Part shown: positions 3,148-58,807 of the stretch, one piece after another
Layout: every line of letters starts with the position of its first letter
Position numbering within the stretch: the first letter of the stretch is position 1
Notes under the pieces: generated by a model
What the model saw: only the letters and a program-made list of their open reading frames with translations
The model's database searches: none
What the model was told of the DNA's origin: nothing
Position numbers and translations under genes: made by a program
Origin: Polytrichum commune
Taxonomy: Eukaryota > Streptophyta > Polytrichopsida > Polytrichales > Polytrichaceae
Assembly (NCBI GenBank): GCA_950295325.1
Contig: OX485803.1
Location: forward strand, 41,059,554-41,123,553
Length of the DNA: 64,000 nucleotides
Reading direction: 5' to 3'

Positions 3148-6100
3148 TTACTGCCTTCGCCCATTCCGGAGGTTTCGTATGGTCATAACAAGCTCCTCAC
3201 GCTCAACCTCCACTTCCGCAAAGCGTAGACTCATGGAAGAGTATCGATCCCGCATATCTCGCAATTCACCTTCCAATTGTTTGACTCGTTTCCGCAGTCC
3301 TACAAGATCATTGACAACTGTGTCCACATCCCCAAAGTTTTGGAGTGCAACAGCATGGACATTCTGTTGCTCCGCAAATGCACTGATTCCAGGCCAAAAG
3401 ACCCACAATAATCCGTCAGCACTACATAAAACCCAGCAGAAGAATATTCACAAGTATTAACAAAGGAATGCTGGTGACATTGAGAATTAGTTTGCCCAAA
3501 ATTAACTACTACATTGGGACCAAGGTACAAATAAAAATAGAAAATTTGTAAAATTCCCAATGTCCATGTATTTTTACAGAAAGATACTTTGCAAAATGAG
3601 TTAAGTTAATAAACTGATAGACAGTGAGAAGAAGATATATCCAAAACTGCCTAAGAGATTTAAAAACGACTGTCCCATATGTGTTTCTTGCAAAAAATTA
3701 TTGTCCGCTAGAACCACAACATCTCTGCTTGAAAGACAAACTGCAACCAGATGGGACATGAAACATTGAAATTTCCAAGTATGATGAGCAAGGAAAGGTG
3801 CGGGTCCAACATACCTTCGCAGTTGCAATTTGTACATGTTGTTTGCCTCCATTGCTTCAGCTAATTCTGTCTCCAAATGTAGAACTCTCTCAACCATATC
3901 ATTGCCACCAGCAGCCACCTTGTATTTCTGGAGTCTCGCCTCCAGCTTCTCATTGACCTGCAATATATGCAAATGAACATGTCACGTTTCCCATACATTT
4001 TGAGCGCAAACCAAGAAACATGTAGGCCCTACTTCAACCGTATCTACCAAACACGCCAATGAGGAAATAGATCAAAACATAAGACACATGCCCATGAGAA
4101 TATCAAGCTGACCCATAGCCATCTAGTAATCAGATAATTTTGGTTGGCAATGTCCAAAATCCCAGTTGTAGACATCATCTTCCAGTTGGCAGTGAATTAT
4201 GAATCTCTCCCTGGCTTTTGCAAAGAGACTTAATCTTAACAACTATACTAACGAAGGTGTGCATTGACTTCACCTGGTTGATTACAGTGTCCATATGTGC
4301 AGCTTAGGGCAGGGCAAGTTGAGCAGAGACAAATGAATATTAACAAGATTGCAAGAGGCTCTTGCTTAATTATTGTGACTACAACCCAAGCATGAAAGAG
4401 GGGAAGAGTTCAAACCTCTTGCAATCGTTCCAATTCACTCTGAAGCATCTCTTGTGTGGTAAGTTTGGATTGCAGTTCGCTAATGAGACGACTAGAGGCT
4501 GCATTCTGGTTATGCAGCCGTGTTAACTGCCATTCAAAAACAAAATACAAATTCAGGCCTCACAAAGTAGTTCCCATCTGGCATAAATAAACTTCCAAAA
4601 ATCTTCATGTAGAAAAACTCTTAATCCTGAATGCCACAACTAGCACTAAGCTCATCATCAGAAGAGATCGAATAAGCCTCATGTAGCTCAGAGAAGATTT
4701 TAACAAGACCTCCAGTATGTAATTTCAGCTGCAAATAAGAGTCATATGAACTGCATAGGAACATGGTATACTTGAAACGATGACTTGGAAATTACCTCCA
4801 TTTGAAGTTGCTGTAGATCTGAGTCAGGAGGCCCCTCAGCTAGCTGCTCGTTGGCTAACTCTAAACGCTCAATTTCTGTGAGCCACATTATTTCTTTCTG
4901 TTTGAAATCTTGCTTTAACTTCTCTATTTCATTTACCCTGTTAATGACATCTTCCTGCATATATGCAAAATTTAGGTCAATACAATGCCAAATCATCTGC
5001 ATCAAGTTTATAACCATGCACTTGTTTATTACAATTGATTGAACTCTTAAGCACAACACCTAAAAGGAGCAGCACTGCAATACATCCCATTTGGTCTTCT
5101 GATTTCATACATCTCCTTACCTCATGAGCCTCATGGCCATTGCTTGACCTAGAAATTGATCTTGAATGAGATTTTGCATTTCCATTGCTAGTTGCCTTCC
5201 TTAGTTGTTCTGTATACAGTGTTCGTTCATTTTGTTCATCTTCCAGTGCCAGTTCCAATTCCCTGATGCGATTCTCCAGGGCAGCCTTCTCCTTTTGAAC
5301 CATGGGACCCTTTTGCAGATCTTCTTCCACCTTTTCAGCCTGGTGATGTGGTGAGTCTTTCAGCATGGATAAGTTTCTGAATTCAGTAGCAGACTTCAAC
5401 TCCACATCCTCAAGGTCGTTCTGCAGTTTAGCAACTTGAACACCTAGGGCTTTTGACATAGCGATAGCATTCATGTGATCAGTAGTGACAGCATCCAACC
5501 TGTCCTCCAGCAGTACGCGAGTGCTTTCAAAGAATTGAGTCTGGATTTGAAGTTCTTGCTTGGCTTCCTTAAGTTCTCTTTGCAGTTGCTCAACTTCTTG
5601 TTCCAAACGATGTTGGGAAGTTTTTGAGTCTTCATGCTCAGCAGTGACTTCACTCAACTCCTCTCTCAAATGCTTCACAAGTTCCTGGTGCTTTGTCAAT
5701 GTAGCATCCAAAGTAGCTTGAAGCTGAACCTTCTCACTAAGAAGGTAGGACTTTTCCTCCTCAACCACTCCTGCTTCCTGCTGGTGCAAGTCTCTCTCTT
5801 TCGTCATGTATTTCAATTGTAATTGGAGACTACTTACATGATCCACCGTTTGCAATTTCTCTGATTCCAGATCTGCCAACTTGCTCTCTAAACTGGCCTT
5901 TAAAGCTTCGAGTTCTGAACATCTTGTTTCTGAAGTCCTCTTTTGCATCTCAAGGCTGTCCATTTGCTCTGCTAAATACTCCAACTCCTCCAATGCTTGT
6001 TTTAAGCGCTCCTGGCTCAATTGTACTCTCTCCTCAGCTCTACGTTGTATGCTCTCCTTCTCCAGCTTTTCACTATCGAGAAGCTTCCTTAGATTCTCCA

Positions 6101-9100
6101 ACTCCATCCAACTATTACTGTCCTCAGCGGAGGCACTGGTCGAGATTTCATGTTCCAGCTCCTCTACACGCAACCTTCACATCCAAATTGAAGTATGAAA
6201 ATGCAACCCACAAAATATCTCTTCTGCATGGTGAATAAACTAAAAGCCTGCAAAGTGTATATGTAAAGGGCTGGAGAGATTAGGCTTAGAGCTGGACAGA
6301 AGAAACGTCAAGATCCAACATGTGAGCAAGGAGATCAGGTAGGGAGCAATCACAAGAACTGAAACTTATATATACCTGCTGAGTCTGCATTCTTCTTGAG
6401 AATCCTGAAGTTCCCTTTCCAACCCGGCCACAGTATCAGCCAACTGCTGAAATAACTGACCATTTGCAACTTCCCTTTCTTTGCCAAGATTGTTCCGTTC
6501 CCCGCCTTCTAACAAAGTCTTTGTCTTCTTCAGTTCTTCATTCTCCACCTGAAGGAGGTGAATCATATTCTCAGTTTCTTCTCGTTCATCAAGTAGATGA
6601 GCTGCTTCCTCCTTCAACCTACTAAGTTCTCCCTGTAGGCTTGCAATTTTTCCTAGCAGCTGTGCACGCCCTTCCTCAGCAGTTTCCGAGTCAACCTCAA
6701 CCTGCCTGAGAAACACCATTCTTTCCTCTTTAGTGAATGACTTGCACAAAAGAAATCTGATGTACAAGAGAGTTACAGATGACTAGAAATATAAAGGATC
6801 GCAATGCTGAATCTCAGATGCTAGAAACTATCAAAGGTAGAAAATGAATTTCGATTGGGCAATCAAGGTTCTGCAACAACCATATGCAGCACATGGCACA
6901 CTTGAACAGAAGCCTGAACTTCCACCCTCCTGTTCACATTTATCATCTAACACATGGGCTACCATCCATACCAAGCCCTTCTAATTACACTAAAGGTTCA
7001 GGAGAAATTTGTACAAGTCAAGAAGAGCAAAACCAGCCAATGACATTGCCCTGTTGCAATCTCAATGACAGGACAATATGAAGGGTGAAAAGCAGCTGTA
7101 ATTGATGTCTTGAGCATGTAAAGGGATTCTACATCCAGTAACTAGTAGCAAATACAAAGCCCAGGAGGCAGATTAACAAAAGAGATAAAGGTGACTTCCA
7201 GGACTTTAAACATTGCTGATAGAGACAATTCAGAATTGCATGTTAATGAATACAAAATCTTGGAAAAGAAACTGTTTCAATACGAAAGAGTGCCCTCATA
7301 ACATGTACTTCGTAAAATTTTCCCAACAACAATTGTATGGGTGCCAAAACCTCAAAATTACTTGCAGATAAAAGTGAAAAACATGTTCAAAACAAATTAT
7401 GCACCTAGATTGATGTGATGAAATGCTTTCAGCAGACTGAATTTCACGTTTCTCCAATTTAGCCTGCAAGTCTGTATTCTCATCTGTCAGCCGAATGGTA
7501 TCTGCCTCTAGCTCCTCTACGTCTTGCTGCAACTGTCTCACCATATTCTGTAGGCCACTTACAAGCACATCACTGCTATCCCCTGCAGATACAGAAGCAT
7601 TCTTCTGCACTTGAAGGTTCCTGGCTTCCAGACGTGTAATCTCGAAATGCAATTTCTGGATTTCACCTTCTTTAGCAGCAACTTTCTCAGACCATTCATT
7701 CTCTACCTGTTTAACCACGTCATCAGGCACATAAGGCTGCAGTGTCTCAACATTCTTAGCTGCTTTCAGAAGATCATCGATTTCTGAGACAAGCGCTGAA
7801 TTAGATTCTTGTGTCTTATGCAGCTGTGAGTTCAAATTCTTGATTGTGGTCTTTTCCAACATGATTTCCTCCTTCAGCTCCTGAATAACCCGTTGAGCCT
7901 CTTCTACAGACCATCTGTAGAATAGAGAATTGCACAACAGATTTAGTAACTCTGCATTCCATTCCAAACTCAAATCTAGAGGTGAGATCACTATATATAC
8001 ATCACAGTTTGTGATTGAACAACATCATCATCCTAAGTATAGGATGTTTAGGTAGTGCATTAAGTTTCAATGATTTAGTTGAAATTTTGTGGCTCAGCAA
8101 AATGGGGATCTGCCGTATGTGGTGGATGTCAAACGCCATGTAGAAATGCCTTCTTATATCAACCTTACGTGAAATTTAGAGAAAATTCACATCCTAGGAC
8201 AAACAACACAAAAGAATGACCAAACAAGAAAGAGCCACCTCAGTCCTTCACTTAGAAATCACATCCGGAATGTCAGAAACTGATAACATGCTGCTAGAGA
8301 CTTCTCCTCATATATAGAGACCTGAAAGTGTGTGAACCATTCACTAAAAAGATGGTGTAAACTTCCTCTCATTTCATGATATCTTTGGCTAACAGAAAGT
8401 AAGTGATACTCATTCTCAACATTGTTGAAGCCTTCCCAAATCCTTCAATATTCCTACAAATCATGTTATCTCCCTGTAAGACTCACAAGCATTCTGAATA
8501 AAATAAAATAAAATAAATACAATTCCAAATCACTAGGTGCACCAAATTGGTGACTTGGTGAACTGACATATTCTGACCTCCTAGATGCTGTTAAAATGGA
8601 GTGTCTTCCCCCGCAAGATTGCATGAACCACTTGGAAACTAGAAAGTACTTAGCGCACCAGTATTTCGTACTTCGAAGAGATGACAAGGACTACCCACCT
8701 GGCCTTATTCTCCCCGATAACTTGATCTTGGAAAGCCTGCTTCTCCATCTTTAGTTGCTCAACCTCTTGCTTCAACCCATCTCGTTCAGACACTAGAGCA
8801 GATAATTCCATCTCCTGTTCTTTGCTGAGCTGAACAGTAGTGTCAAGTTTGTGACTCAATTGCTGTACATCACCAGTGAGCTTACGAGCCTGCCTCTGCG
8901 AAGTTGTAACCTCCATCCGAAGTTCTTCTACAGTGGACTCAGCTGCTTCTAAGTTGGCCTTAAAAGAATTCTCATTCCTTGAAGAACTCTGAGGTGTTGC
9001 TGGCTGCGAACCCCAATTACTAGGAATGCTTTGTTCTACATTCTTAGATTGGTCAGGTCCACCTGAAGTTGCTGATGAAGACAGTGTCCGCTTGTGAGTG

Positions 9101-12089
9101 AAGCTTGGTGCTGGAGATGCATCAACCCTCTCTGACACACTAGCAAATGAGCTTGAAGGAGATATATTTTCTCCCTGGTACCCTTGACCACTTTCATTGA
9201 AGGAATTGGTGCCTGGTGTGGATGGAACCTCCAAAGAATCAAAGCTACTGCTGCTATAGCGCAAGGAAGACTGCGACACATTCCTCTACAATAATACAGT
9301 GGAGAGGAAATTCAGAAGAATAAAATGGCAGTGATAGATACTCTGAACTGAACACTTAATTCAACCAATGAAATGTGAGCTTCAAATGCCTTGAGACAGA
9401 CTGACATGCCCTATGCCACAGTTTTTATGCAGAGGATATCCAGGTTCCCAACAGTAGTGATATGACAGTGTGTAAACATTAAACAAAATTGGTATACTCA
9501 CCTGCTGCAGCTTTTTTGCTCCTGGTGATACTGGAGATAGAGGGGGAGATTCAATTGTCACCTGCTTAAATACCACAGTTGAGAAATCAGCATTTGTTCA
9601 CATCACCTGTTTGAGCTGTATTGGGAACAAAGCAATAATGCAAGAACCAAAGGGACAAATAAAAATCATTTAAACCAAGGCACAAATAAATTTCATCTAA
9701 ATGACAAATGATGTAGACCCCGATCAGCTACTATGGGCTGTGCTAACACAGTCCAAGGGTATATCCAACCTTTCGAGGACTTTTCAGGTGGCCTCCATTG
9801 CTTGGTACAACAATTGTAGGCCTGGCAGGCTGACTCTCATCATCTGAACCAACTTCGGCTTCCTCTTCATCTGCATCATTCCTGAGTTTTATTGCCCTGT
9901 CTGAGTCCTTGCCACTGATGGATAATAGTGATCATAATCAGATGTGCTCCAAAAAATACATGAGTCTACCTTGCTAGGAGCATCACTACATGGGCAGATG
10001 TTGAACACATACAGGTGGGGAATGAGTGCCTTCACAATGCCCACATATGGGCCAGATTGACGTTTAAAACCATCAACCCAAGATCTCGTATAAATAGGCA
10101 CGCTATAGACTTGTCATTGATGTACATACTGACTAGATAAAAGCACTTTCACATGATCCTTAGCATAGCACAGATTCTCTTTCTTTTTGTAAACATCAAC
10201 CAGCCACAAAAGCAGACCCCCATTGTACAGCACCACGTATTACTTCCATAGATGCTCCTTGAACTTAAGAGTAGTAATCATTTGATCAGACCTTCACATT
10301 AATAACAGCAATCACAAGACACACTCGCAGGAAATGCAAAGATGTATATTTAAGGAAAGAGTGCCTGAGGTAAAGTACCTCTCACTGGATCTTGCAGTTG
10401 GGCAGGTAACATTGATCTGTCAAATCACAACAATCCTTTCTTGAGCTGCTTGAGATTGGTTCTAACAGTCCATTTGCAACAAAACCTAATCAAGACCCAT
10501 GAGACAACAACAATATGACTACAAATCGATATAACATTTGCATGTCCTTAAGCCTTGATAAGAAGGTGCTCTGTCCTTGGGCGGAGTTGTGGTGTTTCCC
10601 AGCCTTACATGTAGCACCGTCCCAGTGGTGCAGCTTTTCAGAGGCAGTGCTCTCTGTTGTGCATTTTTGGATGCAGCAAACTCCCCTAAGTTGACGGTGA
10701 CCTCTCCCAGGACTCCTGACCGTGAGGAACCCTGCTCATTCAAGCATTCAAACGAACTCTTTGATTCAGTTTCATTCATCAACATCTGAAACCCTTGCTG
10801 ATGTTGACCAATCTCCATTACAGTCTCTTGAGGACAAGTATCGCATTCATTCTCCTATCAAGTTTTTATTGCAAGGATTCATGAACAGCTCCACTTACAA
10901 ACTCCTGGTAACCAAGAGAGTAAAGAGTAGAAGCAGAGGACTTTATTAATCCTTTTGCATGATCAAGGCGAGCATATAATGAAGAACTTGAAGACAGTAT
11001 CAACACAATCCGACAATGCTTACTGATGAGACAATAAACTTGTATTTCTTTTCCTCGTACTCTTTGGTCTTGGTATCATATAGAAGCCTTGTGGACTCAA
11101 TGATAATGTCAGGCCACTGACAGGTGCCATTTTTTACCACCGCTCTTGATGTCTTAGCAACAGGCCTCCCAGTCTCATACGGAATAACAGATATCACCAG
11201 CTTCTCCCATCCATGCAATGGTACCTGCCAAAAATAAGGATAATTTGGGGGTGTCATAAGATTGTAGGACTACAAGATTGACTCCAGTGTGGGGGACTCT
11301 GTTGGCAGCAAATTGCACGCAGGTCTACTAAGTGACGAAAATCCGCTTAATTATGAAAAATCCTTGAACTCAAAATTCACTACACCATCAAATTCCCATT
11401 CCAACTGCACAGTGCTCTGCCTGATATGGGTTCAGATATATCTGGCACTAGGCCCGGAGTCACAAGCCATAGTGACTGCAGATTCAAAAATAGGCACTGA
11501 GAACATTCTTGGCTAGCAAATTACTACCGACCCATAATTCATGCTCGGAACCACTTCCTGATTCGTTATGTCAAAAGGTCTCGGAGGGGGCAGCAGCAGT
11601 GCATCCATGCGTGCAGGTCTTTGTTTGTTTCATATTCAAGAAAATCTCTCTTTTCAACAGACGTATAATGCCGCAAGTATGTCAGTTTAAGGTACAATTC
11701 CTTCACGAAAACTTCTTCGTGTCATGTCAAAGACCATCCTAACACGGCTTGACCTAAATAGCCAAAAGGCCCCACTATTCAAGTATTAAACATTCACATC
11801 CCAATCTCATTTTCACATTGACACTCTATCAAATTTGTTGACAGCGAATCGAGCTGCCAAGGTCACCAGAGACTCTGAATCTGAAACATCACGACCTTCT
11901 CAGGGCGGGAGACAAGTGAAGACAGGAGCTTGAGGACGTAATAAAAGGGGCTTGGGGAAGAGAATAGAATGGTCAGCAACAAGAAGAGACAGGAGAGAGA
12001 AAGAGACAAACCCGAGTGGCATGGAAAGTGAACTTGAAATCTGCTTTTTCCTTCACTTTTTCCGGCTTCTTCTTTAAAGACTTGAACAT
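3148..12089 (-). CDS. NT-C2 domain / long coiled-coil protein (plant myosin-heavy-chain-like, EEIG1/EHBP1 type), 14 exons
   Basis: Minus-strand coding exons: 12012-12089, 11024-11224, 10609-10731, 10379-10416, 9770-9914, 9502-9561, 8699-9285, 7405-7914, 6376-6705, 5121-6174, 4796-4954, 4416-4526, 3815-3957, 3148-3382. All junctions are GT-AG, phases agree and the sum is 1258 codons. Residues about 1-150 form an NT-C2 (EEIG1/EHBP1) domain: it starts MFKSLKKKPEKV, continues VPLHGWEKLVISV and VVKNGTCQW, and ends GVLGEVTVNLGEF. An acidic/serine-rich linker follows (about 150-320), then near-continuous Glu/Leu/Lys heptads to the conserved tail RFAEVEVEREELVMTIRNL. Plant relatives are annotated as myosin-heavy-chain-like or USO1-like but lack a motor. 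A membrane-associated scaffold or trafficking role is inferred from the domains. The MFKS start is characteristic of the family, although an in-frame ATG lies 26 codons upstream (12167). Confidence 0.9.
4621..4728 (-). other. Candidate extra or alternative exon of the coiled-coil gene
   Basis: Directly downstream of exon 4796-4954 on the minus strand a good acceptor (TTATTTGCAG) opens a frame that fits the preceding phase 0. It encodes 35 protein-like residues including FSELHEAYSISSDDELSA, then TAA. No GT donor gives phase 0 into the next exon (4416-4526); the nearest alternative would be a non-canonical CAG|GA junction just before the stop. It may be an alternative terminal exon yielding a shorter protein, a decayed exon, or chance. 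Confidence 0.35.
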
Positions 12090-19063: not shown

Positions 19064-21600
19064 TTACATTTGGTCCACAAATCCGGTGGGTTGCTTCAAG
19101 GGGAAGAAAATGTTGGATTTTCGATAGAATGTGTCCCTCACTATGGGTTTCCTGGCATGAGCAGGTTTTGCGTAACTAGCCGTAGCTGCCGTGCTTCCAT
19201 ACTCATCTGCAAAAGTCCGATAGTCTCCACTTTCCTACACACACAAAATTATACACTAAACATTGAGAGAGAGAGAGAGAGAGAGAGATCACCTTGATCA
19301 TAGTCGTGAGCTCATATGTGAACTCAAGATGGCTTTACAAAATAGGGGCAATTGGAACATGTGCTATTGCCTCATGTCAGCAGTCATCCCTTTTGCTATC
19401 CATGTGCAGAGGGACGTGGGGAAAAATCCATGTTTATGTGTATACCATGTGTTTAGGTGAGAATTATGGTGACAATGTGTCTAAATTGGTTTCAAGAAAA
19501 CGATCGACCAACAAGAATATCACAACTACTCTCCAAGCTAAACACATCATCATGCCAATCAAGAATTGTCAAGTAAAGAAAAGAAACAATATGTTCTTAA
19601 GAATGATAGGCTACACGGAGGGTTTGGAGAATATAATTGAATTTGAAGGATAATTTTAATTTTCTTTTGTTCAAATACCTTTTTGAGCTCGGGATTATTG
19701 GCGCAATACGCGATTTGATGATGGCAATAGTATGTTTGCTTGTGGCATTTATGGCAATGGGCTGTTGTGGATAGCCCCGCTTTCCCCACATCGTAAACAA
19801 ATTTGGGTCCATCAAACTGCAACAAGATTATGATCTCCTAGTCAAATAAAATATGAAGACATTACACACTTATGAATACAATAACTTATAATGGACTACC
19901 TCAAGAAAAACACAATACCAACATGGCTACTGCCGTGCACATGTGGTGCCCAAAGATGCCATTGTAACGCTAGGTTTAAACCTGACATACTGTGTGACAT
20001 AGGCCACCCCTTGCAACCACCCCTCATCAAAACCCCATACACCTAAACTCACCATACAGTTCATAGAATTTGTTGTAGAAGCCCTCGACAAGAAAACTAC
20101 AAAGTATCAACCGCTCATCAATAACATCACAACAAGAGAATGGAATGTAGCCCCACTCATGGTCTTAGTTACAGGCGCAAAAGCCACAACACACATCTCA
20201 TCAATGAAAAGCTTGGAAATAAAACTTAAACTCCATGTTATGAAAATCAATAGTACGTTCAAACAAATCAACATAATTGCCACACAATATGCACATTCTA
20301 TACTAGTCCGTAAACGAATACTAGAGAACCGACAGCCTATCACAAACCTCCAAAACCCGCCATAGAACTAATTTTCTCTATACCATACTCTCTAAATGGT
20401 ACTTTGTTCTCAAATGATTTCTACTAATGATGGTTACATGCTTCCAGTTACTGTTAATGACTATTAGTTACCAAATGTAATGTCTACTCCATGTAAAGAG
20501 TGGAGTAGTTTCACATCTAATGTCATTGTCCAAGGATGTTTTATGAACATACACTTTATTCACTCCAACCTCCTTTGGAGACCATAATTCTTCTTCTCCT
20601 AATCAATTTCTTACTACAAAACATTAAGTCATTTTTCTACAACATCCTTGTTTTTACTTATGTGTAGAATGCACACCGGACCAATTTTGTAAGGGAAAGA
20701 AGGGCAGATTCCGAGTCCAAAGATAGGAAACACAAATTTTCCGTCCTTTCTCATGGATGGAATCGCCATAAACATTCAACCATTCATACAAGTTGTTGGA
20801 TGAGATTCCCAAATTTTGGATGAATGTGTCCATATTCAGTCAATATTATGTATGATTTAATACACACATGGTTTCATGACTCGGATTGTTGTCGCCAGTA
20901 TGACTTTCTTGAAAATTGTGAGAAAAAAAAGCATTGACTCACAAAATAAATATTTTTCAAAGTTCTCAATTCAAATTAATCTTCTTATCAAGCCACACAT
21001 GCGTTGTCAAAGTCAACTGAATTTGCTTTTGCCCGGGACATCTTTAGGACATTATTATGCATGAGGTAAATACATACTAAAATCAATTCCCCAATATGTA
21101 TGTATGTATGCATTCATTTATTTATCCTAAAATCTTGCAAAATAAGTACATAAATGTCCACCATCTTAATATAACGTCTTTGTGATAATTTTGGGGTAAT
21201 CCATCAATAAAAAACTGAAGTTTGACCCTTTAATGTGTTACTCATACATACTTTCAAGAAGACATATTTTGGTGCATTGGAATCTTTTGTCAACTGCTAA
21301 CGATGATCAATTAAGACTTATGGATATAACATTGGCCGTTTGACACACACTCAACGATTAGGGCCATTTGACACACTTGGCCAAGGGCCACGAGAGGGAA
21401 AATAAAATGATTTAGGGTTTCTCGTGGTCATGTTTGATCTTCTAAAGATCCCGACCAAGAAACATCCACAACACATTTTATAAGCTTTGCTCACATGGCA
21501 TAGTGTAACACCGACTTAGACCACGACGTGGTGTTTTAATGAAATTAAAACAAAAGGAACCTAAAATACAAATAGGATAAATATGTATATTCAAAAAGTT

Positions 21601-21632
<32 letters not shown>

Positions 21633-24600
21633 ATATATCTTATATGATCACCCTCGTTTTTGGATGAGATAACTCTTGCCACAAAATCTAGGTGACCACT
21701 AGACATTATCCATTTTTGGACATGTAGGATTCCATGAAACTCTCTCATTCATTGTATGACATGCTCGCCTATGGTGACTTTTAATTTGAGTGACCTTGTG
21801 TAAAAATAAAGGAGGATTGCCACTCATTTCTCAACCACTGAGAGATAGTAGGAAACGGTGGTTGTGGTTATTGATCATCAATGTAAACTTGGCCCTTAAA
21901 GTGATGGTTTTAGTATCGTCAAGTTGCCTTACACAAATAATTTTATAGGGGTTTATACTATGTATGGTAAACATTGTGGGTCACACCATAAACGAGGAAA
22001 CCAACACTAAAAACAACATGGATATTATTATGGGTGCATATTGTATATAACATTGGAGGTTTGCATCGTAGGCCACAAAATTCCTATTGGATGGAAAATA
22101 GTGTGCATTTTAGACACTTTCAACAAAGTGGGATCCATTTCATACCCATCCTATGTAGGTAGTTTCGAATCTACGATTCAAGAGTTTACTTTATTTTCAA
22201 AAACTCCAACAAAAATTAAACTCACCAAGAAATAGTCCTAACATTAGTTGTCTACAAATAAAAGCTTGTAACTTCAATCATATTATAGAATAATATTGTT
22301 CCATTGAAGCCGTGGATAGGACAAGTATGTATGTGGAGAGATTGTTGGAGAAACAAATATCTCAAGTCTATGGTTTCATGCTATTTTAACATTTGATGAT
22401 GTATAATGTGGGCCACACTAGGAGGGAGAGAGGGAATTATTGCATACGAGCATACCTCTCATCCATCCAATGCAAAAAACTCGACCCCCAATATGTGTGC
22501 TGCCTATTCGTCTTAGACAATCTCGGGTAGATTAGTCTGGGTCTTCAAAGCTAATTCTAATATCACATCAACTGAAACAAGCAACCTCCATGATGCATGC
22601 TATTTAAAGGCTTGGATGGATGAGAGGTACACTCGTATGTGATAATTCCCTCTACCCAGCACACTATAGTGTATCAAAGGGTAAGTCACGCTACTATAAA
22701 GTACATGTGCCCACACTACTCACCGTAAATAGTGTGGCTAGTGCACGTGAAACCACTCTCTTCCAAAAATGCCGATGAAGGAAATGATTTGAGGAATAGG
22801 GCGACCCCAATAATAATTGAGTGCATGATGGAATGCGGTTGAGATTGAACGAAACGTTCATTGCCAAGGGCAACAATTATGAACACTTTTAGGCGATTAA
22901 ACTTGTGTGTTGTGGGCCCTCATGTGGACTCGGCTAGAACTCCTTGCCCTTTTCTTGAAAGAGTCCTCAGGTTCAATATTTGTTGTTCGTATTGTGTTGA
23001 AGGTCGCCATGCATAGAGCAAGCACCGCCAAAAGGGCTCATGGGTACGTTCAAGGTGGAACCACATAGGAATCCGTACTAAAGGAATATGTGGGTGGGGC
23101 CGATTTAATGAATGAAATTGGAGGAACGACAAGGACTCCAAAGTCATGCCCACGGCCACACTAAATATGGCGGTGAGTGTCATATGGTATATGGGGTCAT
23201 CGTGGTAACTTTTCTAATGACATTCCTAGGGAACCGGACGATAAGTATTTGTCGATGGATGATTGAATGTTGGATGAAACCCATGCCAATCATTGAAACA
23301 AAGTTTGGTGTGTGACAAAATTATCGTTATAGATGATATGAGTTTTGGATGAAAAATTGTCTTGAGAAGCGACAATATTGGCAACGTTGTAAATCTAAAA
23401 TGCCTTGGTTTTTTTTGTCTTAAACATGCAATGACAAATATTGTTAGGTTTTGCGTTTAGTGTTGGTGACACTACATGGGTGGTTCACGATTAGTTTTGA
23501 GCAAGACAAATAAAATTGGTGACACTAAATACAATGTTTAGTGTAGCCACCCACCTCTTTGAGTTCAGCCCCTACCATTCTTACCAAGGTAAAGGGGGTT
23601 TAGTTTAGTAAAAACATGACCCCCATAGGGTGTGTGGTTTATTCATCTCGAGTGATACCCTCTATATTAATTTGGAGCTTCTAATACTATTTAAGTGTCG
23701 AATATTGTTAAAAAAGAGGAATCTATTTGATATTATAGAATTGCTCGTGTTTTCACCTCAGGTCATAGTGGTGGGGCCCAACTCAAAGAGGTGGGTGTCT
23801 AGCCTTGGCCCAAAGTTGTGGATTGAGTGGTCATCACAAACTTCAAAGGGTGATTGATGTGTAGCATAATTAGAGGTGGCTCGCATGGGATCCCAAGTCC
23901 TTAGTCCGAAGCCACTTGAGGTCAATCCTTTCAATCTCAACCGTTGAGAGCATGGGCATTGGGACTTACCACTTCACACGGGGTCCCAAGTTCTAGGTCC
24001 CAAGTATGACATGAATGCCTACATGGCCATACTTTTTGGAGGTGAGGCTTGGAGCTTGTGTTGAGAATTGGGTTGAGCAAAAAGTTAGACCCAACTCTTG
24101 ACACAAGCACCGCAACTTTGTTTCCATAGAATAATCAAGATCGAGATCAATGAGTATTTAGCCATATTTTAATGCGTTTTTTAAGGCTCAACAGTTGGGA
24201 CTTTGCCTCCATGTTGGGACTTGCTAATATGAGTGGGACTCGGGTTCCAATACGAATCGGCCCTTAGTTTATGATACAATTCTTTTGTACAAGTACAATG
24301 TGCCACATTATATAAGAAAAACAAGCAATTGATGATTCACATCAACATTTATATATTTATATATTATAAATCATGTGCTTCCGGAAGTTTGTGAGGATTT
24401 AGGATGTGTTTTGGTAGTGCATTAAGGTATGTAGTCCTAAAGTAGTGTGTGGTCTTAAATAGTTTCTAGCACATAATAATATCTTTGAGTATGAAATGTA
24501 CATATATGAAAGAAAACCATTTAAGAAAATCTATGAGCATCATAAGAAATTCACTTTCATTTCAAAAATAGCAAGACCAACTCTCATGCTCCTCATTTGG

Positions 24601-27600
24601 ACTCGCTAATATCTTCATGTAAGTTTTCTTGGATTGCCAAACCCTTACATATCTTGGAATGTTGGGAGTGTCCACTTTAGGCACACTTACCTTACGTAGC
24701 AAACTAACAACCATTGTTTTTTCACCACTATGTTTTGTCAATGTGCAAAGTTTTAGTGCCAGTGTACACTATAGCTTGAGGGCCCTTGACATGTGATGTG
24801 CAAATTATGTGATTGGTCTGAGCTCATTTTACACTAGATATTGAAGGCACAAGGGACCAAAGAAATTCAAATGGATGAGAATCCTACATGATGTCCTTAC
24901 ATGACAACAAGTAATAATGTTTCATGGTCTACTGGATATTGTGAGGCTCATCAAAAGCATGTGGGTCAAACCCAAAAAAAAACTAGGGGTTGTGGCAATC
25001 GATTGAATTGCCATTGGCTTCTAAGACAATTATATTGCCAAATGGGGACCCAAACCCTAACATATGTTGCAGTCCTTGTGACGCGGTACATTTTCTCTCT
25101 ACACTAAACTTCTCAAGGGCCCATCCATTACAAAATTGGATTTCCGTTGTCCACAGCATGAGTTTTAGATGATTTTCAAGGACCCTTAGATTGTCGTGGT
25201 CACAACTCTTGGTTTGTGTTTAAGGCACCCATGATTACGTAGTACCATAACAACTTCGACGCTGCTCAATTCAATTGAGGTGGACGTGCTTACCTTGATT
25301 CAAGTACTAATCTTATTCATACACCTACATTTGAGTGGCACGTGGTTTGGTGCAGCTCCAAAAACGGATACAAAAAAAACATGTGTTGAAAAGAGATCGG
25401 ATTACGTGCTCAAACTCTGATAACCATTATTAGACGCAATAGTCTACATAGCTGAGTTAACCTATATGACCATTGAATACAATAATCTCCACTTTGTAAT
25501 GAATAAAAAATACATATGAGCCCCAAACTCATGATGAGGAAAGCGGCTATGGCCTCGATTTGGATTTGCTAATCATGTTGCACTAATGTCGTATTTCATA
25601 TCTTAAGAGCAATGGCTAGCGTGAAAAGTAGCCATTTAAGACCCATCTATCTTATGAAGTATAACTTGGTTTGTTAGGGTTTAGGATGATTATGGACAAG
25701 GGGAAGAGATGATACTCTTGTAGGTTTCCTTGTTCCAATTTCCGGATACTTTGCCGCCAAGGCCTTCATCTTCTCGGCCATCATCTCCAACGATTTCTTG
25801 GCAAACTTGTCGTCCATCTGTATAATTATCACACACCCTAGAAAATTATCACCCACTAATTCTTCAAGGAATTATGAATGGCTCCAATCAAGTTAAAATT
25901 GCAAGAGGATGGGGTGTGAGAAGCTCGAGCTCGAGCTCCCCTTGGCATTTAGGGGATAATAAGCATGATGGAAGAGGAAAATGAGAGTTTAAATGTACAC
26001 TTTGTATACCCAAAACTAACATTGTATACCCAAAACCAACTCTATGTATCAAAATTGTATGTTGGTTTGGGAGTTTGAGATGTACAATTGTGGCACACAA
26101 TGTGGGTGACTATTGTATGTTATGATATTGAACTATAATTCAAGGTAGTGGTCGGACAACTATCTCCAAGAAGGCAAGTAATGCGGCTCATGTTGATTAT
26201 TTCCTCATGATTATTTCATTAATAATAATTGAACCGGTTAGTGTTTATAATTTAATGTGAGTTTTACATAATTATCATGTCCCACGCTAAGAAGACTATA
26301 TAATGTAGTTAGTACAATACCTTGAGCTGAGTGCGGTATTGCTCTGTGCGACAAACATTGCTGAACTCGTCGGTTTTAGAGAAGTCGGAGCTCAAGAAAC
26401 CCTTGTAGCGCTCCGGTTGCGATTGCAAGTACATGTTCCGGTCGATGTAGAGGTCTCCCTACCATACACGATGGTAATATAACATTGGGTCAGTCTCCTA
26501 ACACCTACTCAAGGGGTAATAGTAAAAGTTGTCTCCTAGATAATCATTGTCCATTCATCCTAATTTAATTCTCTATACTAACTCAAGATCTTTGACCTTG
26601 ATTTTGGAGTTAATATACCCAAATTTAAAAAAATGAACGTACTTTACAAATAGTAATACAAATTTTCACCCTCCCCTTCCCCCGGTTCGTCTTCTCACTC
26701 GGTATGTGATTTGAACATTCACCCACATAATATAACAAAGAAGAAGAACCATATTCATTAGTTACATGTATGAGCAACTACCTCAACCCACTGCAAACTA
26801 TTCATGGGTTAAGTTAGTTAAAACATAAATGACTTTGCTTGGAAAAAAAAGTGCATTCTCATGAAATTGGTATAACATTGTGTAACTCCGAATAGTAACA
26901 CACACTAAATGGAATAATCAATGTAGTTCCCAAGTTATCTTATTACCACAAGAAACTTTGGGGATCTTTCCACCTCGGGAAAACATGCGGTGAGGTTGAC
27001 AAGACTTGGTGGATGATGGTATCCCGTGTTTTGACCATTTTACCACACGTGAATTCCCTAGGTGGTAAATTGCCCAAAGTTCCATGTGTGCTCACAAGGG
27101 GAGTCACTATGGGAAAGTGGACAAAACTTGGTGGATGGAGGCTCGTTCACCAACTTTTGTCCACTTTATAATGTTGTTTTTCCCATGGTGATCAAGTCAC
27201 CAATCTTCCACGTGTGACTCTTCATTCCCTGTGTGTATAAGGGAGGACACGTGGTAAAGTGGACAAAACCTGGTGCATGGACAAATCTCGGTAGATAGAG
27301 GCCCATTTACCAGATGTAAAGAAGAGAATTAATGACTTTGATATTGCCACTGGCAGAACTTGGAAGACTAAAACACACATAAATAAAATCTTTTAACTAG
27401 AATAAAACTTCCATCCATACAATCGAATTTATCATAAGAAGTGGCGACTTTTGTTACTAATCTTCTGCATCGGGTTGAATTGCTTTAGACGAATCTTGGA
27501 CATATATTTTTGTTTCGACCTTTAGGGGTTGTATATAGAGTTCCATATCATCCACCGAGTAAACCTTGAGTTCAATACTTGTTAGGAGCTGGAACAAAAG

Positions 27601-30600
27601 ACATAACATCTACACAACTCCTTCGTTGCGTTCAGTGGGACAAAGTATCACACGAGCACAATTCTTCTTTGATTCTTGAATCCCTTATTTATATAAAGCA
27701 CTCGAGTTACGTACTGTGAACTTCTTAATTAACAAGCAGTTGTAAATGATCAAAGTTTCTTAATTGCAACCTCTTTCTTTGGAAAGAAGCCATCATGTAA
27801 CTACTTAGCAATGTTACGAAACATATGTAAGGTATACCGTACAAAACACCATCGGTCCTATAAAGGGACCTAAATTGCCCTAAAAGTTCCCAGTGGCAGG
27901 GAATCACTCACACGTGTGCAAAGGGTTAAGTTACATAGAAGTTACAAAAGGGCATGTGGAAATGACTTGTTGGCGGCTATGAACTCGAGGGCTTATTGTA
28001 TATATGTTTTAGGGTTTGGAATTTTGGGGAATGAAGTTTAGGCACATACATCAAAGACCCAAGGGTGCTCTTTTTGGAAGAAAACGTCGTTTGTTTGGAA
28101 GCCTTTCTTGGGCGTGTGTGATTGCATCTGCTTGCCCTTGAAGTTGCTTCGATCCTCTGCACCAAAAACGTTAATTCCCACACCAATTCCCTCACCATAA
28201 GAACGTCACCTTAAGTAACACCAATAGTAACCACGTGGGATTCACCGACATTCCACACTATTTTGGAATGTTTGTTACCACGAGAAGAAGACTATGTAAA
28301 TTGTGTGCTTTTTGAATGTGTTGTCGTATGGATGAGTACATAAAACTATTAAGTTTTTGGTGATTTGCATGGGGTAAAGAGGTAAAACATTTACGAGGGC
28401 AGCCTAATTGCACGTATCGGTGAACACTTTTAACACTTACTATTGAGCACGGGTAGTGTATGTCAAGGTCCATTGTGTTGTAAATGAATAAGACAATCGT
28501 TTATTCAAATGTAAAAATGAGGAGTGACTGGCATAATATTTATATTCTGGTATGTTGTTGATGTTGTGTTTTTTCTTATGTTCGGCATCTCATAGTAGTT
28601 CATGTTCGTGCAGAAGATTTGATTCTCTATTTCTAGGTTTTGAGCATATAGTGGTGTGGGCTCAAACCGAGACTAAAATTAACATGGTATGAAAACATTA
28701 TAGTGGGCTCTCGGGGGGTGCACCTTTCATTAAAACCTAGAATCACGTGCGTTCACTACATACTCTAAAAACCCCCTATATACAAGTTATTTTTTGTGAA
28801 ATGAAGTAATACACATACAATTGCAACAATAAATATACAAGTGACAATATGTATACACAAAAAAACATCCGTTCATATATAGTCATTAACATAAGTATAC
28901 AAATATACTTTTGAACAATAATCAACCCCTATAATATGTATAACAAAATATCCTAGCTTTCATCAGCAAAGTTGTTGAAAACTTTTTCATCTCCCGGATG
29001 TAACTCATTAACATTTCATCTTCAATGTATTAGGTAATCATTTTATTGGAAAGGTTATCGGTGCAGAACCGGTTCTGTCAAGGTGGCGAGCCCGCAAGGG
29101 CGAGCCAGCTAGACAGAACCTGTTCTGCACTGATGACCGGTTCCAATAAAACGATTACCGGACGTAACCGGTTGGCCGCTTTGTTGAGCCGCGCATGTGA
29201 CCTAAACAGTGGGTCACATGTCGTCTTCCTCCAGCATTTGAGATTTGGACGCCGTTGGAGATTTGGGTGCTGCGATTTAGATTTAGATTTATATCTGATT
29301 TAGATGATCATAACCGGCTGGGATGTCGAGGTTATCGTCTGCAAACCTGTGTGCTCAGAGCCAATCGTGTAGTGCCACCTCGGCAAAACAAAGCGGCCAA
29401 CCGGTTACGTTTCAATATCCCTCTCTAACCTCAAAACCCGTCCACATGGAAATGTTCACAACCAACATTGAGTGAAATGCACCCTAAACAACCCAAAATC
29501 TCGAATGGCTTGCAAAGTTTGGGGTTAAGCTTACTGGTTGGCTAGCTGAGATGCCTGAAGGCTTCTGTTGTAAGGACTTACTGCAGACCTGGGGGATAAG
29601 ATGCTACGAGTTTGTGAAGCTTTGTCAGAGTGAATCTGAGCCGTTGGTAGCCAACGGGACTGTCGACTTGGACGGCTCAGATTCACTCCCACACCCACTT
29701 TGTGTCACATGACACTGTGTTGGAGTAGTAGTAGTAGTACTACGGCAAATGGCAGACCCTCTCTACTTACTTAACTTACATCTCCAGACACCGGCAAAAT
29801 CGGACACCCATATATGATGTAAAAAACGTGCATGCCCTGGCATGTCAGCTTAAATAATCGATCAATTACGACACCGTTACACACACACACACATATATCT
29901 ATCTATCTATTTATTTATTTATCTATCTATCTATATATATATATATAATACTGGGGTTGGGTTTACATTAGGGCATGGGTCTAAGGAGCTTGGGGATTTT
30001 CTTTAGTGAAGATCGAGGAGACCTGGAGGGAGAGTGATGATGCCATTGTAAGTGCCACTTCAATTTTTTCATACCTTGAACCTGGGATCCTAGTGTAAAT
30101 CTCATGGGGTCCAAAGTTTTGCTTTCGACGAATGGGATCAGTCAGTTTTGAGAGTTATTTTGGTCTTGGACCCTTTGTGCCCACTATGGTGTGGGGAGGT
30201 GTTCCATTGATCTAGAACACGGTCAATTGCGTACACCAAGTCGTGGACTCGAACTCGAACTCGAAACCAAACCCAACTTCACTTAGTAGTACTTTTCAAA
30301 CCGATGTTTCCGTGGAGGAAAAGGTTTTTATTGAAGTTGGTGTTATACTGAAACCGTCATTGTGTGAGCTGGTCAACACGATTAAGACGGAACTGGTGAA
30401 TGTGGTCAATTGAAGTTCCATGCGTCCCCGAATTAGTTGGAAAAATGTGCGACGTGCATAGTTTGTGTGCATTTAGCCATGTAGGTTTGTAGTAAATTCT
30501 TTTATGCAAAGGGAAGTGTTATAGTAGCAAATGTCACAGAATTTGTAAATTCATGATAAATTCGAATTAGGTCGACCTAGGGACGCGTGCACCCAAACTC

Positions 30601-30954
30601 AAGTTGGGTGCCCGATCCCATGCTACGTCAATATCCTCCGGTGACAATGCAATATAATGCCATGTGAGAGTACATGGGAAACTTCTTTTCAAGTTAGTTT
30701 GCGATTAGAAGTGCAAAAACAATAAAGAGTAAGAGGAGAAAAACAAAAACAACCACAACAATCTTTTACCTACGGTTTGATTTCACCCAAAACTTAAGAT
30801 GGACACAAATTTGAGGTAGGTTTTGTGAGTAAGTCGAGCGCGCACCATTTTTGATGGGGTACGGAAACGGGTCTTCGGGCGACCCGAACGAGATGTAACT
30901 CGTGATCCCAAAGACATCGCGGAGCGCCCGCTCCGTCAACAAGTTATTATTCAT
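19064..30954 (-). CDS. Probable ciliary/flagellar protein, CFAP96 (C4orf47)-like, six short exons
   Basis: Minus-strand exons A 30846-30954, B 28050-28156, C 26321-26458, D 25716-25817, E 19679-19816 and F 19064-19234 splice with GT-AG signals and agreeing phases into 255 codons (254 residues). Key peptides in order: VFGITSYISFGSPEDPFPYP, QMQSHTPKKGFQTNDVFF, GDLYIDRNMY, SSDFSKTDEFSNVCRTEQYR, KKSLEMMAEKMKALAAKYPE, FDGPKFVYDVGKAGL, HARKPIVRDTFYRKSNIFFP. The layout (phi-G start, GKQM, FDGDLYID, DEFSNxxRTEQYRxQL, KPIVRDTFxRxxNIFFP) resembles the CFAP96/C4orf47 flagellar family as I remember it; that is not verified. A basal-body or axoneme role in motile sperm is inferred. Introns of 0.4-5.9 kb hold transposon relics. 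The exon D donor (AGA|GTATCA) is weak; read-through would stop at 25674 and give 165 residues. Exon E adds a Cys/His cluster. Confidence 0.6.
19266..19290. repeat. (GA)n microsatellite
   Basis: About twelve uninterrupted GA units lie just upstream (minus-strand sense) of the terminal exon F acceptor of the CFAP96-like gene. On that strand it is a CT tract and could serve as part of an extended polypyrimidine tract. Confidence 0.9.
20003..20365 (+). pseudogene. Retroelement (LINE-like) polyprotein C-terminal remnant
   Basis: A 120-residue plus-strand open frame without a proper start runs between stops. Its pattern REWNVAPLMVLVTGAKATTH, then KLKLHVMKINSTFKQINIIA, then YAHSILVRKRILENRQP, resembles the C-terminal tail found after reverse transcriptase in some LINE-type elements (family memory, not searched). 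No polymerase domain is present nearby, so it is a truncated relic. It lies antisense inside intron 5 of the CFAP96-like gene. Confidence 0.45.
21600..21640. repeat. (CA)n microsatellite
   Basis: An uninterrupted run of CA units grades into CATATAT. It lies inside the largest intron of the CFAP96-like gene. Confidence 0.9.
22421..22656. mobile_element. TIR element, family B copy 2 (about 236 bp)
   Basis: The left end GGGAGAGAGGGAATTATTGC, then ATACGAG...CCTCTCATCCATCCAA, is mirrored by the right end GGATGGATGAGAGGTACACT with CGTATGTGATAATTCCCTCT. The interior resembles the copy at 31648-32170 (ATTCGTC..GATCT, GGGTCTT). No coding capacity. Confidence 0.6.
23447..23556. mobile_element. Short element with TTTAGTGT...ACACTAAA ends, related to family A termini
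   Basis: The left segment GCGTTTAGTGTTGGTGACAC and the right segment GGTGACACTAAATACAATGT, then TTTAGTGTAG, are inverted relatives of each other and of the family A ends. About 110 bases, no coding capacity. It may be a deletion derivative. Confidence 0.35.
25318..25665 (+). repeat. Dispersed repeat C, copy 1
   Basis: This stretch matches 35866-36180 along its length (CACCTACATTTGAGTGG near the start, GAGCCCCAAA in the middle, AATTTGGATTTGCTAAT and the GGCCTA/GACCCATCT end); a shorter third copy lies at 34231-34378. It borders the terminal part of exon D of the CFAP96-like gene. No coding capacity; origin unknown, probably a non-autonomous mobile element. Confidence 0.55.
26490..26720 (+). 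repeat. Dispersed repeat D, related to 14090-14480
   Basis: Shared segments include CTAACACCTACTCAAGGGGT (14097: TAACACCTACCAAGGGGTAA), a middle part with TTCAAGGTC/CTCAAGATC and TGAACATTCACCCA near the end. The two copies are diverged and differently truncated. No coding capacity is seen. Confidence 0.4.
26970..27310. repeat. Degenerate internally repeated segment
   Basis: Variants of GACAAAACTTGGTGGATGGA occur several times in 340 bases (near 26998, 27120, 27263), alternating with CCACACGTGAATTCCC-like and CACGTGTG motifs, some inverted. It lies in intron 2 of the CFAP96-like gene and may be the eroded end of a mobile element. Confidence 0.4.
29032..29161. repeat. 130-bp fold-back hairpin
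   Basis: AGGTAATCATTTTATTGGAA, continuing through GGTGCAGAACCGGTTCTGTC, is mirrored by GACAGAACCTGTTCTGCACT through CCAATAAAACGATTACCGG. This gives arms of about 49 bases around a GC-rich loop of about 31 bases (TGGCGAGCCCGCAAGGGCGA). It is in intron 1 of the CFAP96-like gene and immediately abuts a second TIR element. Confidence 0.8.
29161..29411. mobile_element. 250-bp element with perfect 24-base terminal inverted repeats
   Basis: ACGTAACCGGTTGGCCGCTT plus TGTT (29162-29185) is repeated exactly in inverse at 29387-29410. Inside is a second palindrome (CATGTGACC...GGGTCACATG, about 29199-29224) and an ATTTAGATTTAGATTT run. The perfect TIR match implies recent insertion or a functional constraint. 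No transposase is encoded. Confidence 0.7.
29879..29950. repeat. Compound microsatellite (CA)n(CTAT)n(TA)n
   Basis: A simple-sequence tract: CA units, then CTAT/TTAT units, then TA units. It is in intron 1 of the CFAP96-like gene. Confidence 0.9.
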
Positions 30955-39262: not shown

Positions 39263-42200
39263 CTACTCGCTTGCACTTCCACTAGCATGAGTGGGAGACT
39301 TTGAGACATCTTTCCGCCTATTCTCACGGTTACTCGCACGGCTCTTTAGAACTGGACCAACCATCTGATCCACATCTGCCGCTCCCTCAATTTCACCAAC
39401 TAGTACATCCTTCTCTAAAGACTCTGAAGGTGACTTCCCACGATGCTTATGCCTGCGTTTCCTTTTGTCACGTTTCTCATCATTGTGCTCACGTCCACTC
39501 CGGTGCTTTCTGCTGCTGCGATGGCGTCGCTCCTCCTTATCCTTACCACCATCTCCGTCTCTTTTATCATCTTCGTCATCATCCTCTTTCTCAGTCTCCT
39601 CATCTCGCCTTCAGTTTAAACACAGTTGTTGTTAGATGAGCAAGTAGATGCATGTTACACTTGTCTACAGATATATGTTTTCCAGTTCCCAACTATATGA
39701 GCTCACAAAAAACTCGTTTACAAAATGTGCTATATCACAGTGAGCAGCTCATGAGGGCACAACACCTCAGTCTCTGGATTGGGCTGGACAGTAAAAAATA
39801 CTCTTTAAATGAACAGAACACAAACCGCATATAGAGCTTCCTGTGATATGCAGTTATGGCTACCACATCTCTGAAGGTGTGCATTGCCACTACCAACCTT
39901 GCAAAGATGTTCACTAGATGTACCTTCTTGGTGGCAAACAAATCATTAGGTATGACACTAACAGAAACAATAAGAATGTGAGAGAAGCGTTTGGTTGACC
40001 ATATCACGATTGGCCTCCCAAATGCTTGAAATGAATTGAACATTACTTGCTTGAGGGACCACATCTCATTAGAAGATTGACACATTCTATACAGAACTTG
40101 CTGAGCCCATGATTGTTGAGGTTTCGTACACTTACCGGTGCTTCCTTTTATGTTTGCGATGCTTCTCTTTCCGTCTTTCACGATCTGCCTCATCTTCATG
40201 TCTTCTGCTTCTCTCCCTCGATCTTGACTTTTCTTTGACTTTAGAGCCACTATACAACTCATCTTCTTCCCTCACCCTTGACTTCCCTCTGTGAGTCCCC
40301 CGTACCTCCTCTTCATCCCTCAACCTACCCTTGTCTTTCCCCTTCTGAACTCCAACTTCTTCCACTTCCAAAAGATATGGTGGTAACTCAGCCCCCATTT
40401 CTTCTCCACTGTCCTCTTCATTCAGACTATTGTGAATTTCTCTACCAATATCCTGAAGAAAATCATCACCATTCTCACATAATTCATTAACTTTAGCTGC
40501 ACTAACCTCTTCATAAGCCAGTTTAGGGCCCTCAAACACCATGTCATCATCCTCATCCCTCTCTGCTACATCTGTGGACTCTGGGCTTGACTCCTTTATG
40601 ATGCCTCCCATATCCTCTTTCACTCCTCTATCACATCCTCCATGCCCCATATATCCTCTTTGTAGCATCTCCTCTTTTCCAATTACTACCTTGCTGCCAT
40701 TCAGATGACCCTCAAGTGAATGCACGGTCTCCACATGTGTGTATTGTTTGTTAAATGCCTCCTTTCTCGTCTTCTCAAGCACGTCATGATTGCCCAATAC
40801 CTCACTGTCCAAAGACTTCTGAACCAGTGCCTTCCTACCTTTACCAAGGTGTTCAAGTAATGTTACTCCATAATCTCTTACATCTTCCACAACAATGGGC
40901 TGAGCAGGTATAGCTTTCCTCTCCTCCTCTCTCCTCTCAAGCTCCCGCTTATTTTCCATGCGTTTAATCTTCTCCAACTCATTCGCCTTAATATCATCAC
41001 GCCAATCATCCACTTCTTTGTCCCCATCACTTTCATCGGAAGGAAATTCTGATCGGCCACTTTCCTTCCTAACATACCGTCCTTTCACACCAAAGTCAAC
41101 AGTCTTCCCCTTTGTAACTCCTTTGACATCAACCTCAGGTTCATGTGACGCTTCTGCATCCGATACTGCACCTTCAATAACCATTGCTGGGGAGCTCAGT
41201 TTCTTCCGAGCTACATCAGCTACACTGAGACCTTCATTAGTCCTCTCACCTACAGTATCTTGAACTGCATTCTTCTTCCTGTCACTCAGTCTGTTCACAT
41301 CTTCAAGTATATCTATATTTGTCTCTCTACTCCTAGGAGGAGGGGAGAGAGAAACAGAAAGTGACCTTGCTGGAGAGACGGATAACTCATCTCTACCCTT
41401 CATTTGGACCTTCGTATCTTCAGTTGCCTCTTTTCCTTTACTACTGGCACCATCATCTTGGTGAACCTTGTCTCTATAATCCTTCTTTGCAGGGCTCCTG
41501 ATCAGAGCACGTACACCATTTGTTGGCTCTGGGCTCAATTTTTCTTCTTTTCTAGAGTCTTTGCCACTAGCTCTAACTCTTGACTTTGAAGGGGGACTCC
41601 TACTGGTATCTTCCTTGTGCAGACTCTGACTTCGACTGTGACTACTGTGAGATGGACTCGCCTTTGCCTCAATAGACTTTGACCGTCTAGAGCTGCGCCC
41701 CGACCTCCGATCCTCATGACGATACCTAGGAGGAGTCACACTTCTGTCACGCCTACCACGAGGAGAACGTGAACGGGTATGAGACCTGCGCCGAACTCGA
41801 CTTCTGCTGTGGCTTCTACTCCGCCGTGACCGTGAGGAATAATGGTCCCTGTCACGTTCCCAATCCCGTCGGAAGGATGGGTTCCATGCATACTCCCCAC
41901 GGCCCCTGTAAAACCCACGTCTGCTTCGACCTCTGTAGCCGTAGTAGTCCCTTGACCTTGATGGTGATGGACGCGAATCACGCCTGTATCGAATTGGAGA
42001 CCGTGAGGCTGACCGGTCTCTGCGATAGCGAAGAGGAGATCGAGACTTAGATCTTGAAAATGATCGTGAACGTGAGTGTGAGGGCGTCCGAGAGCTAGAC
42101 CTGCTCCATAGTGAAACTTTAGAAATTGCTTATAACCACAGATGAGCATACATTAGACTAGCAGAAATCTTTTAAAAAGACCTCAAATACTCATTAAATA

Positions 42201-58615: not shown

Positions 58616-58807
58616 AGAAGAGAAACAGAGATTGATAGAAGAGAGAGAGAGAGATTGAGAGAAGAGAAGAGAAGGGAAGAGCAGAGAAAGAGAGATTGGT
58701 AGAAGAAACAGAGATTGAGAGAAGAAAGGGAGATTGAGAGAAGATATTGAGAGATTGAGAGATTGAGCGGGAGTTGGCGGGGCAGGAGGATTGATTGAGG
58801 AGCTTGG
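58616..58807 (+). promoter_or_regulatory. GA-rich leader of the METTL13 gene
   Basis: About 140 bases of almost pure purine (GAGAGATTGAGAGAAG-type repeats) precede the start codon at 58808. GA-rich leaders are common in plants and can act as promoter-proximal or translational elements. The antisense strand is open over 236 codons only because of this composition and the GC-rich first exon. Confidence 0.5.

Follow-up and report, generated by a model that had tools for sequence, protein, structure and literature searches.

A six-exon gene in the moss Polytrichum commune, probably the orthologue of Chlamydomonas FAP90

FAP90 is a Chlamydomonas protein that has been tabulated among the microtubule inner proteins of the B-tubule (PMC10460401). 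The structure 6U42, which includes it, is that of the doublet of C. reinhardtii (PMC10973386). Human CFAP90 (C5orf49) owes its name to a structural similarity to FAP90 and a similar binding site on the doublet; with CFAP45, CFAP52 and ENKUR it belongs to a cluster close to the inner junction (PMC9564825). An early bovine study removed FAP90 from its model for lack of density (PMC8595878), and a later human study reported that five of the six proteins it added, CFAP90 being among the six, are present in the bovine map (PMC9564825). FAP90 is possibly missing from Tetrahymena (PMC8742875). Both FAP90 and SPMIP1 have been classed as proteins with an SNYG module, for which the consensus [ST]-N-x-x-[ILVY]-G has been given (PMC10973386).

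Land plants are not mentioned in the passages on FAP90 in the literature searched, and searches of it for microtubule inner proteins in the Marchantia axoneme or in land plants gave nothing relevant. The passages of PMC8128824, which deals with P. patens sperm, say nothing about FAP genes, and those of PMC2239267 nothing concerning moss. Public plant annotations may already contain the gene described here, which is a further member of the already known FAP90 family.

Here we investigate a window of 64,000 nt from the genome of the moss Polytrichum commune, on the minus strand of which six exons form one complete gene running from position 30954 to position 19064 (Table 1). Joined from the window sequence, the exons read from an ATG to a TAA through 254 codons with neither a stop nor a frame shift. 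The five introns, of 2689, 1591, 503, 5899 and 444 nt from the first to the last, all begin with GT and end with AG, and their phases are consistent. The exons have a GC content of 48%, rising to 60% at third codon positions, and the introns one of 39%. A sequence-only reading of the window had proposed six minus-strand exons of 102–171 nt over 11.9 kb, with introns of up to 5.9 kb; its positions, splice sites, phases and codon count were reproduced unchanged. It had also held that no single exon makes a convincing ORF, and between 19064 and 30954 the minus strand indeed lacks any stop-to-stop ORF of at least 120 aa, both ORFs listed for that interval lying on the plus strand. How far do such signals carry a gene model? 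On the minus strand of the whole window, 539 of 2793 AG..GT intervals of 100–175 nt are open in some frame, so splice signals and open frames are by themselves weak evidence. It is homology that lifts the model above the level of chance.

Table 1. Features of the gene, in window positions; the shuffle column gives, for each exon, how many of 2000 shuffles did as well against FAP90
Feature	Position	Strand	Length (nt)	Shuffles (of 2000)	Description
Exon 1	30846..30954	minus	109	0	Start codon, residues 1-36 and one further base; begins with MNNN, like FAP90
Exon 2	28050..28156	minus	107	0	From the remainder of codon 37 up to residue 72; joined to exon 1 inside ungapped FAP90 alignment
Exon 3	26321..26458	minus	138	0	Residues 73-118; block with the highest conservation (27 of its 46 residues as in FAP90)
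Exon 4	25716..25817	minus	102	39	Residues 119-152; gap-free start against FAP90
Intron 4	19817..25715	minus	5899		Largest intron; dispersed repeats in two main stretches
Exon 5	19679..19816	minus	138	893	Residues 153-198, phase 0/0; cysteine-rich motif; basis is splice signals, frame and similarity to a frame on C5
Four-cysteine motif	19694..19756	minus			C-x2-C-x6-C-x-H-x4-C-x-N-N in exon 5; Cys 173, 176, 183, 190
Exon 6	19064..19234	minus	171	0	Residues 199-254 and TAA; C-terminal block KPAHARKPIVRDTFYRKSNIFFP
SNIFFP	19100..19117	minus			Aligned with TNVFFP of FAP90; resembles an SNYG-type tubulin-binding patch

The homologue sought for the joined protein was found in Chlamydomonas FAP90 (6u42 chain 7Z, also in 8glv), which is the single strong match (E 1.8e-37) when 177,635 distinct PDB sequences are searched with phmmer; the second of the ten matches has an E of 0.38. 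The alignment runs over residues 1–243 of the 254 in the moss protein and residues 1–233 of the 242 in FAP90. The comparison was made with this one sequence, of which 233 residues were available, and a global alignment pairs 221 residues, 97 of them identical. The two proteins share the MNNN N-terminus, the block GFxxSDFSKxDEFxNxxRTEQxRxQLK, which lies in exon 3 of the moss gene, and the C-terminal KPxHARKPxVRxTFxRKxNxFFP, which lies in exon 6. The alignment has no gap across junctions 1/2, 2/3 and 3/4, which supports the exact splice choices at those places; junctions 4/5 and 5/6 are not backed in this way. When exon 4 is removed, the global score to FAP90 drops from 358.5 to 306.5. A tblastn search of the window with FAP90, run with filters and composition correction off, gave six matches. 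Three are exons 3 (E 3.4e-12), 6 and 2; the other three lie outside the gene, and the strongest of them (E 0.004), which falls in an Arg-Ser-rich frame at about 41.5–41.9 kb, was taken as an effect of composition.

Across the genome searched (407.8 Mb in 64 contigs, with gaps), the joined protein has seven matches at E 1 or better, namely the six exons and one weak match on another contig, C5 (E 0.098). The locus is thus the best and sole copy of FAP90 found in this gapped assembly. That the gene is complete, that it is the moss orthologue of Chlamydomonas FAP90 and that it encodes a B-tubule protein form a joint reading in which we place high confidence, orthology in the strict sense being presumed from comparison with the one FAP90 sequence.

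At the C-terminus, SNIFFP of the moss protein and TNVFFP within the 233 FAP90 residues both depart from the strict SNYG consensus. The moss protein has a weak likeness to SPMIP1 (Pfam PF22589) over residues 209–241 (E 0.0012). The scores, 19.5 bits for the whole protein and 20.7 bits for the C-terminal piece, are below the cut-off of 32.1, and the match is confined to this C-terminal patch. The 233 residues of FAP90 have no SPMIP1 match in Pfam up to E 10. No chain named CFAP90 appeared among the PDB matches up to E 10, either with phmmer or with a two-sequence profile, the presence of such a chain in the library being unconfirmed.

The two proteins differ in their middle part. FAP90 has one cysteine, at position 15, in its 233 residues, and the moss protein has a cysteine-rich segment, encoded by exon 5, with a four-cysteine motif that is a possible metal site and that was not found in those 233 residues. 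The weak match on C5 is an open frame of 213 codons (43707858-43708496, plus strand), a candidate gene, in which the motif recurs with x5 instead of x4. Flanking residues are shared as well, and the two frames have 28% identity. Their local score is 80, and none of 5000 shuffles of either sequence reached it (maxima 57 and 68), a result that is overstated because the pair was picked beforehand as the best remaining match in the genome. The protein of the C5 frame has no match in Pfam and one match only in the PDB, at E 0.5. Two partial copies of the 3' part of the frame lie directly downstream of it. A profile made from exons 5–6 and the C5 protein finds the FAP90 C-terminus in the PDB (E 0.00023, positions 66–94), a match that the window's own FAP90 row drives at least in part. 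Ribosomal proteins also matched this profile, namely eL37 (best E 0.002) and a single L32 (E 0.62); we attribute these matches to similar cysteine spacing and not to kinship.

Does exon 5, then, belong to the protein? FAP90 gives it no support, so the splicing in the middle of the protein could differ. The gene might be FAP90 with exon 5 wrong, optional or replaced, in which case the true protein would be without the cysteine motif or would carry it in some transcripts. The global score to FAP90 is slightly higher without exon 5 (360.5) than with it (358.5), 893 of 2000 shuffles make the exon no better than chance against FAP90, and the similarity that speaks for it reaches just E 0.098 genome-wide, with shuffles run on a pair already chosen as the best. 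Since its phase is 0/0, the exon could also be skipped without a shift of frame. On the other side, exon 5 has GT-AG on both flanks and an open frame, its motif and the adjoining residues recur in the C5 frame, and tblastn with FAP90 as the query found no further FAP90 piece in the introns that might be a missing exon. The splice sites, the frame and the C5 similarity favour exon 5 as coding, and we consider it unlikely that it is misplaced or dispensable. The C5 frame also suggests that another protein may carry this cysteine module. It may be that moss FAP90 has gained a metal-binding-like four-cysteine module common to a second gene on another chromosome, and that the sperm flagellum of the plant lineage has in this way acquired a set of microtubule inner proteins stapled by cysteines; we offer this as a tentative and rather doubtful proposal.

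The family and the state of the gene have alternatives of their own. The sequence-only reading had likened the protein to CFAP96/C4orf47, and it does weakly match the Pfam CFAP96-like model (PF15239) over residues 15–111 with E 0.0022; furthermore, the two-sequence profile, of which FAP90 is a row, returned from the PDB chains only FAP90 and a chain named FAP96B, the latter at E 1.6. The Pfam match is worth 18.6 bits, however, under a curated cut-off of 27, and the 233 residues of FAP90 reach a similarly sub-threshold 18.4 bits in the same region, so that the weak resemblance is a trait of the FAP90 family. It may stem from remote kinship or from a module that the families have in common. Given a FAP90 match of near full length, we reject CFAP96/C4orf47 as the identity of the protein, and membership of that family is very improbable. 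Could the locus instead be a decaying or silent copy? It has a long intron with dispersed repeats. Two stretches of intron 4 (intron positions about 1447–1850 and 5113–5874) recur with 77–84% identity at at least 33 and at least 8 other places, these counts being lower bounds from 65 matches listed and 40 of 13,490 candidates scored; a few further stretches match the genome more weakly among the matches listed. These counts concern intron 4, the part of the DNA for which the description as transposon-rich was examined. Yet the 254 codons have kept their frame, GT-AG is intact at all five introns, and this is the only copy found, in a genome that also has exons of other axonemal proteins. There is accordingly very little chance that the copy is decaying or silent, and a working FAP90 gene is the reading that we retain.

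In the flagella of moss sperm the product is most likely one of the microtubule inner proteins of the B-tubule, and the gene would be expressed in sperm. By analogy with the published structures of FAP90 and CFAP90, from which both position and role are drawn, it would be a short structural protein, neither an enzyme nor a motor, that lines the wall of the B-tubule inside the doublets of the sperm flagellum. Its neighbours there, close to the inner junction, would be FAP45, FAP52 and enkurin/FAP106, and by lying on the tubulin lattice it might stiffen or stabilise the B-tubule wall. Exons of FAP45 type and of enkurin type are present in the same genome, which supports an inner-junction setting. 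Seven ciliary Pfam families were sought in the genome, and five of them (PACRG, enkurin, DM10, radial spoke and TPH) have matches above the cut-off, the PACRG, DM10 and radial-spoke assignments being based on Pfam matches. The TPH family has three matches, and the two that were taken to the PDB are FAP45 (E 5.4e-10) and FAP53 (E 1.2e-13). The enkurin matches are individually weak, and that family also has a sub-cut-off match in one bacterial control. One of the two has seven PDB matches up to E 1, all of enkurin type, with E values of 0.0094–0.1 (FAP106 at 0.013), and the only PDB match of the other is an enkurin-domain chain (E 0.048). A separate CFAP96 or CFAP77 in the genome was sought with the Pfam families and gave no match, and since the control genomes were equally silent no absence can be read from this. 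Homology to FAP90 and the exons of other axonemal proteins agree with the earlier view that the exons are those of a spliced gene of the flagellum and that the plant has motile sperm; the family name is the part of that view that has been replaced.

The locus provides a concrete moss counterpart to the gene of a doublet inner protein that is known from Chlamydomonas. If the reading holds, plant and alga would share part of an inner-junction set that includes FAP90, FAP45 and proteins of the enkurin and PACRG families, and moss sperm would be a place in which the function of FAP90 could be tested.

Other features of the window and the genome were also seen. Several coiled-coil-like frames at 3601-9285 on the minus strand resemble the exons of a single large gene, with Pfam matches only below the cut-off. 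The Arg-Ser-rich frame, of 665 codons at 40132-42129 on the minus strand, has no Pfam match; it presumably resembles an SR-type, splicing-related protein. On the plus strand there is an open frame at 50759-51184 with a weak, sub-cut-off match to the N-terminal part of ABHD16 (E 0.0068), and a possible methyltransferase exon at 58799-59263, also with Pfam matches below the cut-off. The PsaL of the genome has its best PDB match in 8htu (E 1e-115), beginning at the first residue and therefore taking in the transit peptide; this chain is labelled PpPSI-L (PMC10005731), where Pp would stand for Physcomitrium patens, in keeping with a moss. Elsewhere in the genome, PsaL has four matches, three within 35 kb on C2 (65.09–65.13 Mb) and one on C31.
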